Shown here in pieces: positions 12,007 to 19,362 of a stretch of DNA of 64,000 nucleotides. Every line of letters begins with the position of its first letter. Position 1 is the stretch's first letter. The notes under the pieces are model-generated. The model saw nothing but the letters and a program-made list of their open reading frames with translations, was not told where the DNA came from and did not search any database. Position numbers and translations under genes: made by a program. Source of the DNA: Verrucomicrobiales bacterium (GTDB lineage: Bacteria > Verrucomicrobiota > Verrucomicrobiia > Verrucomicrobiales > DEV007); contig JAEUHH010000064.1 in assembly GCA_016795505.1 (NCBI GenBank), positions 62,001 through 126,000 of the forward strand. Direction: 5' to 3'.

Positions 12007-12300
12007 CTACTTTGCCAGTGCCTTTAAACGCTGGGAGAGTGATATCCGCAAGACGCAGGGGTTCGCGGCCACATCCTGCAGTTGCTGTTCGGACAATCGA
12101 GCGGCGAAAACCGTTCGCCGGGTGTCGGCACGGACGCCGAGCTTTTCCAAGTCGGCCACCTGTTTTTCTGTAGGCGGGGAGCAGGTCCTCACGGTCACGT
12201 CCACCCCGGCTTCCGACATCGGAACGTCCTTGGCCACAGCTAGGGCCATCGTCAGCGGGATGTCGAATTTGGTCTCGGACATGGCGGAAAATAGGTCCAT
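12007..12300 (-). CDS. Small protein resembling a subtilisin propeptide / I9-type inhibitor
   Basis: This 97-residue protein is encoded immediately after the subtilisin gene. Its ATG lies one base past the subtilisin TGA (TGA-G-ATG), so translation is probably coupled. Residues about 30-95 align by eye with the subtilisin's own propeptide-like segment. Both have a VxVRT/VRVR strand, a charged helix, an AR-hydrophobic-S element (FAARLS versus TARVS), a VLRIS/VRRIS strand and a closing RLKAL/QLRPL. This suggests a separate inhibitor or folding helper for the protease. There is no signal peptide. Two other starts are possible: 12345, which overlaps the protease gene, and 12282. Confidence 0.7.
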   Translation of the reverse strand: MDLFSAMSETKFDIPLTMALAVAKDVPMSEAGVDVTVRTCSPPTEKQVADLEKLGVRADTRRTVFAARLSEQQLQDVAANPCVLRISLSQRLKALAK

Positions 12301-12301
12301 C

Positions 12302-14170
12302 TCACAACCGGAGCAAGCCGTATCCCCATCCCGGGTCGTGGACACCAGTCGCCGCAGCCGGAATGTGAGAATGGCTTTTCAGAAAATCCTTTGCCTCGTC
12401 GGGGGTCAATAGGGGCCTTTTCTCGAGCAGCAAGGCCATCACGCCAGCAACGAATGGCGACGCCATGCTGGTGCCGGCTTCGAGGACGTATCCCGTAGCG
12501 ATCCGATTGGACGGATTAAAACGGGCTGCCGACGATTCGCATGAGGCGATCATGGCTCCTGGTGCCGTCACGTCTGGTTTCGGTGCACCGTTTCTCAAGG
12601 GGCCAGGGCTGCTGAAGTCGGAGATATCGTTCTGGATCATCCCTACTTGGCGCTGTCTGCCGGAAAGATCCGTCCAGGTATTCCGGCTTGTATATGCAGC
12701 GACCGTGATCGCCTCACTCGAGGCTCCGGGGGACCCGATTAAATGAGAGTCGGTCGCCACTGATCCATCGAAACGCAGGGTTCGTCGGGAGGCATTGGGA
12801 TCGTGAAGCAACCAGACATGCACTGTGCCTGGCTTTCCCCGAGTCCGTCGAACTTCCAAAGTCCAGCGGCCTCCTTGCACCCGTCCGTCTCCGCCGACGA
12901 CCTCAACTCCAAATTGGTGGTCGCCAGTTCCGCCGAAACTGTCTGGAGTCGAAAGGGTGACGGTATCGGCACCCGATAGATGTCTCCGCGCCGGGGTTGA
13001 TCCGCCCATTAGCCCCTGCCAGGGCGTTTTCGTGCCTGCCGGTGAGATCAGGCGGATGTCGCAAGTGCCCGATCCGCTATACCAGCCATTCAACCAGAAC
13101 CATTCCAGTGGTTCTCCGCTGGAACGGGGCTCGACCGTCAGCGGGAAGCTTGCAGTCCTTGCTTCCGCCAGCGATTGCATGGCATGGATGCCATCACCCC
13201 TTTCGTTACCGGCTGCTGCCACTACCAGTCGACCGGGACCGCAAAGTTCGCTGATGCCGATCGACAAATCGTCATTCCCGTCATGTCCGTCGCCATGACC
13301 GCCAAGGCTGAGATTGACCACCGCAGGGCGGCCCAAGCTCTCGGCTTCTTCGAAAATCCACCGAACTCCTTCCAGAACGCTGCTGTTGTAGAAATCGGTT
13401 TTCACCACCAACAAATCGGCGTCCGGCGCGACTCCGCCAAATGGAGAACCCGATCCGGCGGCAATGCCGGCCACGTGAGTGCCATGACCATTTGAGTCCA
13501 CGCTCAGGTTATGTTGGCCGGATACAAGTACCTGCCCCCCGGTGGTGAAACCGGTGCCGGGTCCCGGCCCTTCGATGACTTGATCCCAAATCTTCAATAC
13601 TCTGCCCTGGAAGGCCGGGTGAGTGGCGTCGATACCGGAATCCACAATGCCGATGATGGTTCCGTTTCCTGTCGCAGATGTACCTGGAGCGTTGCGATAT
13701 GCCAGCACATTGGCCAGTGGCAACGCGATGTCCATCAACGGTCGCAGTTGGCGGGGCGCGGATATTCGACGGACAGCTTCCAGACTGGCCAATTCTCTGA
13801 CCCGATCCAATGATACTCGGGCGGTCCGAATGCTACCTCTGCCGCATAGCCCCTCAATTTGGGTGCCTTGGCGCACTCTCACGATGATTGGCACGGTTGA
13901 TTCGGGTCTGCCACCATGGGAGCGCCGCTCCGCGTCTGGCTTTCGGGCTTCGAAAGTGATGCCCAGTTTTGGGGAAAGGGAAGGCTCGTCTCTCTTCAAC
14001 TCCATGCGGGCCATCAACAAGCCCAAAGTTGCCGATACCTTCGTCTTGCCGGTGAGGGATGATGCCTTCTTTGGCTTTTCAACGATGGTGCTCTTACGGG
14101 TGGATTTCTTCGCTTTCGCTATGGGGCGGTCTGAAGCGAGCTTTTTGGGAGTGTTGGGCTTCCTGGGCAT
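12302..14170 (-). CDS. Subtilisin-like serine peptidase (S8), apparently intracellular
   Basis: This 622-residue S8 peptidase has an intact catalytic triad: D177 (GIVDSGIDATHP), H229 (NGHGTHVAGIAAG) and S568 (GTSMASPFVAGVMAL), plus the oxyanion Asn in AAAGNERG. Residues 1-45 are rich in Lys, Ser and Pro without a hydrophobic core, so no Sec signal is evident. Residues about 93-145 look like a propeptide ending in VRRISAPRQLRPL. A large insert of about 130 residues between the AAAGN and serine blocks looks like a beta-sandwich. The gene is less GC-rich than its neighbours and may have been acquired. ATG 14170 starts the basic tail; the upstream frame has no support. The partner small protein follows directly. 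Confidence 0.92.
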   Translation of the reverse strand: MPRKPNTPKKLASDRPIAKAKKSTRKSTIVEKPKKASSLTGKTKVSATLGLLMARMELKRDEPSLSPKLGITFEARKPDAERRSHGGRPESTVPIIVRVRQGTQIEGLCGRGSIRTARVSLDRVRELASLEAVRRISAPRQLRPLMDIALPLANVLAYRNAPGTSATGNGTIIGIVDSGIDATHPAFQGRVLKIWDQVIEGPGPGTGFTTGGQVLVSGQHNLSVDSNGHGTHVAGIAAGSGSPFGGVAPDADLLVVKTDFYNSSVLEGVRWIFEEAESLGRPAVVNLSLGGHGDGHDGNDDLSIGISELCGPGRLVVAAAGNERGDGIHAMQSLAEARTASFPLTVEPRSSGEPLEWFWLNGWYSGSGTCDIRLISPAGTKTPWQGLMGGSTPARRHLSGADTVTLSTPDSFGGTGDHQFGVEVVGGDGRVQGGRWTLEVRRTRGKPGTVHVWLLHDPNASRRTLRFDGSVATDSHLIGSPGASSEAITVAAYTSRNTWTDLSGRQRQVGMIQNDISDFSSPGPLRNGAPKPDVTAPGAMIASCESSAARFNPSNRIATGYVLEAGTSMASPFVAGVMALLLEKRPLLTPDEAKDFLKSHSHIPAAATGVHDPGWGYGLLRL

Positions 14171-14286
14171 GGTTTCGATCCTCCTACTGCCTGTTGGTTT
14201 CCCAAAGACTGAATATTCCAGCTGGAATTGCCAAGCAAATTCCTGCGAAAAGTCAGAGTTTTTTACTTGGGTGCTGAGCTGCCACG

Positions 14287-16911: not shown

Positions 16912-19362
16912 CTACCGCGAATACACCACCTCACCGCCCAGCACGGTCATCTCGACGCCGATGCGGCGGATCTCTTCGGCGGGGCATTCGAGGTAGTCGC
17001 GATCGAGGACGGCGAAATCGGCGAGCTTGCCGGGCTCGAGGGTGCCTAGCTTTTCCTCGTCGAAGCTGAGCCAGGCCGGCCAGATGGTCAGGGTGCGCAG
17101 GGCATCGAGACGGCTGAGCTGCTGGTGGGCGCCATGGACGCGACCGCGGTCGTCGCGGCGGTTCACGGCGATGTCGAGCATCAGGGCGGGGCGGAAGGCG
17201 TTCATGGCGCGATCGGGATCGAAGCCGATCATGTGGTCGCTGTTCAGGCCGACTGGGACGCCGGCTTTGACCCATTCGCCCAAGCCCATGAACCGCTCCG
17301 CCCAGTCGGGGCCATAGATCCTGGCGATGAAATCCGCGTCGCGCTCGTAGAGGTAGCCCTGAGTGTCGACGCCGGCGTTAAGGGACTTGGCGAGGGCGGC
17401 CATCTCCGGGGTGGGGAAGTAGCAGTGGATGAGGTTGAAGCGGCGCTCGCGGATGTCCGGCTGGGTCCTGGCGACGGCTTCGACGGCCCTCAGCACGGCC
17501 ATGGCACCGCCGTCGCCGGTGACATGGGCGCTCATCGGCCAGCCTTTGGCATTGGCGGCGCCGAAGATGGCCTCCATCTGGGCGGGCGTGTAGCTCTGGG
17601 TGCCGGTATAGGCGGGATCGGCATTGCGGTAAAAGGCGGTGCGCTTTTCGCCGTGCGGCTCGCTGAGCCAGGTGGTGCCCCAGTGGATGCCGCCATCGAC
17701 GGTGATCTTCAGGCAGGTGGCGCGGACGCGATCGTCGCCGTCTCCGGGTGACAGGCCGAGCTTGGCGAGGTAGGCGTCGACGCCGGCGGCGTCCTTTGCG
17801 GAAAAGCGGAAAGTGCCGCGCACCCGGACATTCAGGTCTCCCTTGGCGGCGAGTTCGCGGAAGGTATCGAAGCCGCTGCGATCCGTCGCGCGCTCAAAAA
17901 TGGTGGTGATGCCGACGGAATTGTAAACGCCGACGAGTTCGGCATGCTTGGCGAGCACGGCATCGATGGGGTGGACCTTCGGGGCGGGCATGTGCTTGCG
18001 CAGCGAGGCCTGGCCGCCGCGCATCAGCACCGGGCGGCCGTTTTCCCGCAGCACCTCGCCATCGGGTATGGTGGCATCGGGCTGGTCGAGGCCGAGGGCC
18101 TTCCAACCAGGGGAATTGAGCACGGTTTTGGTCACCGAGATGAAAACGACGGGGTGTGTGGTGGTGGCGGCATCGAGTTCCTCCGGAGTGGGAAAGCGCT
18201 GTTCGATGAGCCGGGTGATTTCGTTGCGCGGGGTCTCGATCCACGTGCCCGGCGGCACCTGGGCAGCGCGGCGGCGGATCCAGTCCTGCAACTCGGCGAT
18301 GCTGCGGACCTCGGCGTAGTCGCCATCGAGGGCGGCGCGGGCGGCGCCGAGGCTGTGGCAGTGACTTTCCACAAAGCCGGGCACGACGGTGCGCCCGCCG
18401 AGGTCGATCCTCTGGGTCGTCGGGCTGCCGAGGGCATCGATCGCCGCATTGGAGCCGACGGCGATGATCCTGCCGTCCTTCACCGCGAGGGCTTCGGCGA
18501 TGGACTCGGAGGGGTCGAGGGTGATGATCTTGCCTTTCAGATAGACGGCGTCGGGCGGACCCGCGTCGACGATGCCGTCGAGCCGCAGATAGGCAGCGGC
18601 ATAGCGGCGGCCTAGTTCGCGGTAGGAAGGGCTGTCGAAGTGGATCTTGTCTCCCTTGTGCGCGAGTCCTTCGGCAGAGACGAAGCCGCAGAGGGGAACC
18701 TGGCCGGGCAGACGGCGATGGACCGCGTCAACGGTCTCGATCTCAGGTGTCCACGGCACATCAGGGAATTTTCCCATCTGGCCGACGAGGAAGGGCACGC
18801 GAGAGGCTTTCAGCTCGGATCGGAAACGGCCGACGAGGTCGAGCAGTTTCGCCTCATAGGCTGGGGCGAGGGCGGGCCGGCAATCGCTCTCGCCCTGGTG
18901 CCAGAGGATGCCCTTCAGTGTCCCTGCCGGCAGGGCGGCGGCGGCCCGGCGGATGGTATCGTCCCAGGGGTGGGACTGGGTCTGGTCGTGGAGCGCACCG
19001 GGCTTCCACGTGTCGATGGGAGAGCCGCCGGCGGCGCAGGGGATGAGTCCGATGGTCACGCCGGGCCTGGCTTGGGCCACTGCGCGGGCAAAGGAGCGAC
19101 CGAGACCAACGCCGGCGGAGGGTTTGTCCCAGTGCATCGGATCGACGGCGGGCACCCAGCGGCCTTCGCGATCGAACATGAGGATGCGTGGGTCGGGCTC
19201 TTGGTCCGCTGGTGTGACTTCGCCGCGGCCGGCCATGTTTGACTGCCCCACGAGGAGGAACAGGTGGAAATCGTCTTTGGGGGGCAGCGGGACATCCTGC
19301 GCCGCGAGCGGAGCGGCGAGGAAGAGGGGAAACCAGAGGGCGGCGAATCGGAATCCTGACAT
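16912..19362 (-). CDS. Exported fusion: SGNH-type acetylesterase (SASA) plus YtcJ-like amidohydrolase
   Basis: This 816-residue protein has a signal peptide (residues 1-21) and two complete enzyme domains. Residues about 30-262 match the sialate O-acetylesterase-like SASA family: nucleophile S41 in LLVGQSNMAG, ILWHQGESD at about 152-160, and the D238/H241 pair (GDKIHFDS). Residues about 272-816 match amidohydrolase family 3: H334 and H336 (ESHCHS), later His residues in SAHVTGDGGA and NLIHCYFPTPE, and Asp in LNSDHM. There is no stop or frame break at the junction. The enzyme may deacylate and then hydrolyse one periplasmic substrate; this is inference. Confidence 0.9.
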   Translation of the reverse strand: MSGFRFAALWFPLFLAAPLAAQDVPLPPKDDFHLFLLVGQSNMAGRGEVTPADQEPDPRILMFDREGRWVPAVDPMHWDKPSAGVGLGRSFARAVAQARPGVTIGLIPCAAGGSPIDTWKPGALHDQTQSHPWDDTIRRAAAALPAGTLKGILWHQGESDCRPALAPAYEAKLLDLVGRFRSELKASRVPFLVGQMGKFPDVPWTPEIETVDAVHRRLPGQVPLCGFVSAEGLAHKGDKIHFDSPSYRELGRRYAAAYLRLDGIVDAGPPDAVYLKGKIITLDPSESIAEALAVKDGRIIAVGSNAAIDALGSPTTQRIDLGGRTVVPGFVESHCHSLGAARAALDGDYAEVRSIAELQDWIRRRAAQVPPGTWIETPRNEITRLIEQRFPTPEELDAATTTHPVVFISVTKTVLNSPGWKALGLDQPDATIPDGEVLRENGRPVLMRGGQASLRKHMPAPKVHPIDAVLAKHAELVGVYNSVGITTIFERATDRSGFDTFRELAAKGDLNVRVRGTFRFSAKDAAGVDAYLAKLGLSPGDGDDRVRATCLKITVDGGIHWGTTWLSEPHGEKRTAFYRNADPAYTGTQSYTPAQMEAIFGAANAKGWPMSAHVTGDGGAMAVLRAVEAVARTQPDIRERRFNLIHCYFPTPEMAALAKSLNAGVDTQGYLYERDADFIARIYGPDWAERFMGLGEWVKAGVPVGLNSDHMIGFDPDRAMNAFRPALMLDIAVNRRDDRGRVHGAHQQLSRLDALRTLTIWPAWLSFDEEKLGTLEPGKLADFAVLDRDYLECPAEEIRRIGVEMTVLGGEVVYSR

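Follow-up and report, generated by a model that had tools for sequence, protein, structure and literature searches.

A Csp-like subtilase gene adjoined by a gene for a stand-alone propeptide homologue in a Verrucomicrobiales bacterium

Two adjoining minus-strand genes of the window (i.e., the whole 64,000-nucleotide stretch of DNA analyzed here) raise the question of why a subtilase should be accompanied by a second, separately encoded propeptide. The need for such a protein is not obvious, because the protease (P0002) has a propeptide of its own. We consider it probable that the small protein (P0001) is a stand-alone S8 propeptide, forming one operon with a Csp-like subtilase, and that it holds the enzyme inactive and maybe serves as a folding helper.

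Layout of the gene pair and architecture of the protease

The protease gene (positions 14170-12302, minus strand, 622 amino acids [aa]) starts with an ATG at 14170, just 3' of a Shine-Dalgarno-like GGAGG (14180 to 14184, minus strand), and ends with a TGA at 12304-12302. The gene for P0001 (12300-12007, minus strand, 97 aa) starts with an ATG at 12300, and the junction reads TGA-G-ATG (12298 to 12304, minus strand), with a single base (G, 12301) between stop and start. The two adjoining frames with a 1-base gap, described earlier in a reading made from the sequence alone (hereafter, the sequence-only reading), were thus confirmed, and the arrangement suggests translational coupling of the pair. 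A GTG at 12345 is a possible alternative start for P0001, giving 112 aa; the ATG at 12300, which yields a protein beginning with MDL, is favored because five of six homologues start with MD(F/Y) or MN. No Rfam element was found around the pair, no tandem repeats were found at it, and no promoter-like or terminator-like sites were seen there on the minus strand.

The GC content of the protease gene is 58.7% (GC3, 0.62) and that of the small open reading frame (ORF) is 59.5% (GC3, 0.74), compared with 65 to 66% (GC3, 0.82 to 0.85) for the genes adjoining the pair, so the earlier remark that the protease gene is less GC-rich than its surroundings holds. The neighbors of the pair in the window encode an APC permease and a Gfo/Idh oxidoreductase. 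Elsewhere in the window, an 816-aa ORF (16912-19362) seems to combine a sialate esterase/SGNH-type N-terminal part with an amidohydrolase and looks, by eye, like a fusion.

P0002 belongs to peptidase family S8 (PF00082; 1.7e-43) and has a complete catalytic triad (D177, H229, and S568), which is invariant, together with the oxyanion residue N322, among nine family members. A Lys-rich N-terminal tail (residues 1 to 60) is followed by a propeptide at about residues 90 to 147 (13730 to 13903, minus strand) and by a catalytic domain with an all-beta insertion at about residues 331 to 456. The propeptide was delimited by family alignments and is the sole part of the protease matched by the profile of the small proteins. 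In the alignments it is shorter around the first helix than that of the related Embleya protease, and it keeps the conserved strands and the second helix. Judged by hydropathy, no export signal was seen in P0002 (highest 15-residue value of 0.87 within the first 80 residues), and P0001 is likewise devoid of a visible signal peptide by the same measure; both proteins are presumably cytoplasmic. The triad, the propeptide-like segment, and the lack of an export signal (by hydropathy) in the protease all agree with the sequence-only reading.

N322 and S568 are separated by 246 residues, versus 66 in subtilisin BPN', and nine strands were predicted at residues 331 to 456 in a shallow structure model (pLDDT of 46.5 overall). 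The best 11 Foldseek matches of this low-confidence model were all Csp chains (E values of 3e-24 to 2e-18; next match, 2e-9), and sequence searches likewise placed Csp germination proteases, with long alignments, among the top PDB entries. The spacing, the predicted strands, and the Foldseek matches agree in pointing to the jellyroll insertion of Csp proteins, as far as a model of low confidence allows. On the other hand, the scores for the NCBIfam models CspBA (96.9 versus a cutoff of 1250 bits) and CspC (60.6 versus 675 bits) were far below threshold. P0002, with its jellyroll-like insertion, is therefore a Csp-like subtilase rather than one of the Csp proteases of germination.

Relationship of the small protein to S8 propeptides

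By sequence comparison, the 97-aa P0001 is homologous to S8 propeptides. A profile of seven small proteins was aligned by hhalign with a profile of nine family propeptides with a probability of 96 and a score of 49.5, whereas column-shuffled controls reached 14.9 at most (30 shuffles) and the reversed profile reached 12.3. When the small-protein profile was slid along the whole protease family, the propeptide windows scored 33 to 51 and all other windows scored 23 or less, and the match is in register with the domain border, as is to be expected of propeptide homologues in the wider S8 sense. Furthermore, a six-frame search covered every ORF in about 120 loci; below the small proteins themselves, almost all matches were family proteases at their propeptide. 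The resemblance claimed by the sequence-only reading therefore exceeds chance at the level of the family. Assignment to the Pfam inhibitor family I9 (PF05922), which that reading had proposed as a check alongside S8 propeptides, did not succeed: P0001 scored 14.7 bits against a gathering cutoff of 21.2 (E value, 0.049), and the other six small proteins gave no match.

In pairwise comparisons, the small proteins P0014 and P0011 matched the propeptide of P0019 with z scores of 10.7 and 9.4, respectively, and the Embleya small protein matched its own protease with a z score of 5.3. P0001 aligned with P0002 with a z score of 3.0, staying in register as far as the domain border, a match that is weak when taken alone (reached by 9 of 500 shuffles).

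A single-sequence model of P0001 (pLDDT of 56.6) showed strands and helices in the order E34-39, H45-53, E64-66, H71-78, and E83-89. Thus, the E-H-E-H-E order of an I9-like fold appears, at the low confidence of this model. Its top Foldseek match was chain A of CspB (4i0w_A, a 92-residue prodomain; E value of 0.3, not significant), the third match was chain B of PAM protease (not significant), and the VIA-align list contained POIA1 and subtilisin propeptides together with further ferredoxin-like folds. The ferredoxin-like fold is a common one. Profile searches of the PDB, run with the small proteins as well as the propeptides, yielded no convincing relative, and a match to tau in such a search was rejected as a repeat artifact.

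Distribution and origins of the pair

Searches with the protease, followed by searches with small-protein profiles, revealed the same arrangement in six records of plasmids (three from Rhizobium and one each from Embleya, Agrobacterium, and Sphingobium), the Embleya protease being 40% identical to P0002. A survey of other genomes, suggested in the sequence-only reading, thus added six loci from several lineages; with the window, the small gene occupies the same position at seven loci in several phyla. A profile of four of the small proteins recovered the other three (8.5e-34, 9.9e-18, and 5.9e-7), and the small genes of Rhizobium are under purifying selection (dN/dS of about 0.27, TH2 versus the other two). 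The Embleya and Rhizobium proteases have fuller internal propeptides, and the small gene is still present.

In a tree of 20 proteases, seven of them with a small partner, the paired proteases fell on two separate branches, one comprising the window and Embleya and the other Rhizobiaceae and Sphingobium. A single clade for all paired proteases was rejected (p-AU of 0.007, to be taken with care given the long branches present). In the first branch, the small proteins most resemble the propeptide of their own proteases (score of 38.0, versus 21.9 for the remaining small proteins). In the second branch, they most resemble the propeptide found in a different rhizobial S8 branch (pairwise z scores of 9.4, 10.7, and 5.3) and show little likeness to that of the protease with which they are paired. 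With two branches and different closest propeptides, the propeptide seems to have become a separate gene at least twice, by independent recruitment, as read from short sequences and few rows.

As for the window, three congeners carry the permease and its 5' neighbor without the pair, and their Gfo/Idh gene lies on another contig. In 57 genomes spanning the genus, family, and order, neither protein had a relative apart from one short weak match (G053), and no close relatives were found among 387 genomes of the phylum; degenerate peptide patterns revealed no close relative of either protein among genome contigs. Since the permease region is present without the pair in three congeners and relatives are absent from related genomes, the simplest explanation is that the pair was acquired horizontally, at a site where gene order is not conserved, and its lower GC3 is consistent with this. 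Of the mobile module envisaged in the sequence-only reading, the late arrival stands, but no mobile gene is adjacent to the pair in the window. One genome (G045) had a distant S8 without a small-gene match, and a weak match in another (G249) was rejected as probably due to chance, the matched ORF being antisense to an exonuclease-like frame. Phages held distant S8s only, as did viral contigs, one of whose S8s (L015) is close to the family, and no small gene was found on the viral contigs. In two of the congeners (G001 and G003; loci L117 and L118), the match to the Gfo/Idh homologue crosses one and two in-frame TGA codons, which are possibly assembly errors or signs of decay.

Proposed action of the small protein and known systems

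Based on sequence and on the analogy with CspB and ASP/ORF2, P0001 most likely binds P0002 in trans as an inhibitor and, possibly, as a folding helper. We infer that the two genes are cotranscribed, that the small protein exerts inhibition or chaperone action, and that a trigger frees the enzyme. P0001 would be made by coupled translation right after P0002 and would dock on the catalytic domain at the usual subtilase-propeptide site, with its C-terminal strand entering the active-site cleft, and the protease would thereby be kept inactive inside the cell. P0001 may also aid folding of P0002, or might, once autoprocessing has occurred, take the place of the shortened internal propeptide. The prodomain of CspB remains attached to its enzyme and obstructs the active site; when it is supplied in trans, folding is recovered and labeling of the active site is prevented (PMC3567191).

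Among known systems, ASP/ORF2 of Aeromonas comes nearest. In Aeromonas sobria, ORF2 has its C-terminal residues positioned at the ASP active site, with a 50% inhibitory concentration of 84 nM (PMC5638518). As there, the helper gene lies directly 3' of the subtilase gene (here with a 1-base gap), action in trans being a property of ORF2 (PMC5638518). However, ASP is kexin-like, lacks a propeptide of its own, and is secreted (PMC5638518), whereas P0002 is Csp-like and keeps its propeptide, and no signal peptide was seen in either protein of the pair. P0002 resembles CspB of Clostridium, its best fold match, in the predicted jellyroll insertion of the catalytic domain (PMC3567191), although the Csp prodomain is encoded within the gene of the protease itself, a separate gene for it has not been described, and Csp function in Clostridium is spore germination (PMC3567191). 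Other stand-alone propeptide-like proteins are POIA1, yeast proteinase B inhibitor, AtSPI-1, TgMIC5, and Plasmodium SUB1-ProM, for which subtilase inhibition is described and the last of which adjoins its protease gene (PMC6993865); unlike P0001, all are eukaryotic and none forms an operon with stop-start coupling (PMC6993865). PopC of Myxococcus xanthus is, like P0002, a signal-less subtilase and is held back in a complex with PopD, but it reaches the periplasm and is secreted (PMC6434023). In the open-access literature searched, we found no description of a Csp-like subtilase retaining its own propeptide while a coupled gene supplies another. Eukaryotic stand-alone inhibitors, ASP/ORF2, and PopC/PopD are already known.

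There is a lesser chance that P0001 acts mainly as an external chaperone for folding, in the manner of ORF2 with ASP, the short internal propeptide folding the enzyme poorly and inhibition being a by-product. The shortness of that propeptide in the first-helix region, the order of protease and then helper as in asp-orf2 (PMC5638518), and a coupled translation that would supply P0001 in step all fit such a role. Nevertheless, P0002 retains a propeptide with its conserved strands and second helix, and the Embleya and Rhizobium proteases are accompanied by the small gene despite their fuller propeptides.

A more far-reaching view, which we regard as doubtful, is that Csp-like subtilases were more than once given a second propeptide gene to form a two-gene intracellular switch, in which loss or destruction of the trans-propeptide frees the protease onto partner effectors (PLD-like or others) in a conflict or cell-death system. 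It is improbable that the pair in the window is itself a toxin/immunity or defense module (i.e., an intracellular protease silenced by a labile inhibitor and freed on infection or stress), even with relatives on plasmids, a PLD-like protein following the pair in Rhizobiaceae, horizontal acquisition in the window, and a sister protease branch coupled to an MBL-fold protein that matches LmuA (5.8e-43) and Avs1a (1.9e-32). The pair in the window has no such partner, nor any phage or mobile gene beside it, and none was recognized beside the Embleya pair; protease-inhibitor pairs also serve plain regulation or folding. In addition, P0002 scored 27.8 bits against the IetS cutoff of 900, and the genes next door are those for the permease and the Gfo/Idh oxidoreductase, not an AAA ATPase IetA. 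The toxin/immunity-like pair proposed by the sequence-only reading therefore found no support at this locus, where no known defense or mobility gene adjoins the pair. Finally, P0001 is very improbable as a decaying, functionless relic of a duplicated or broken-off propeptide, since its weak similarity when taken alone and the lack of close relatives in the searched genomes are outweighed by its constant position at seven loci from several phyla, the purifying selection seen in Rhizobium, and an intact frame with stop-start coupling.

If our preferred reading of P0001 as a trans-acting inhibitor is true, a natural bacterial trans propeptide beside a propeptide-bearing protease would show how subtilases can be controlled in trans in the cytoplasm, and the pair would be a natural version of the CspB prodomain coexpression experiments. 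It would offer a simple two-gene testable system and a marker for similar switches on plasmids, some of them beside effector-like genes.

Several related loci have further partners. On three rhizobial plasmids (L011:2701-6920, L012:2452-6665, and L095:5728-9845), the order of S8 protease, small propeptide-like protein, and PLD-like protein is conserved; the PLD-like third gene has two PLD stretches, and in L012 a CHAT-domain gene lies upstream of the set. On Rhizobium and Sinorhizobium plasmids (L101-L104, L107, and L108; e.g., L104:5473-8876), an S8 of the sister branch overlaps the downstream MBL-fold gene by 1 to 4 bases. The LmuA (Lamassu) and Avs1a matches given above are PADLOC matches of the MBL-fold protein of L104, which also matches RTasMBL (3.6e-30), and from their sequences these S8 and MBL-fold pairs might possibly represent a conflict module. 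On a Gemmatirosa plasmid (L100:5503-12360), a 2285-codon ORF holds an S8 domain of the P0002 family, and the protease there seems to be fused into a very large protein.
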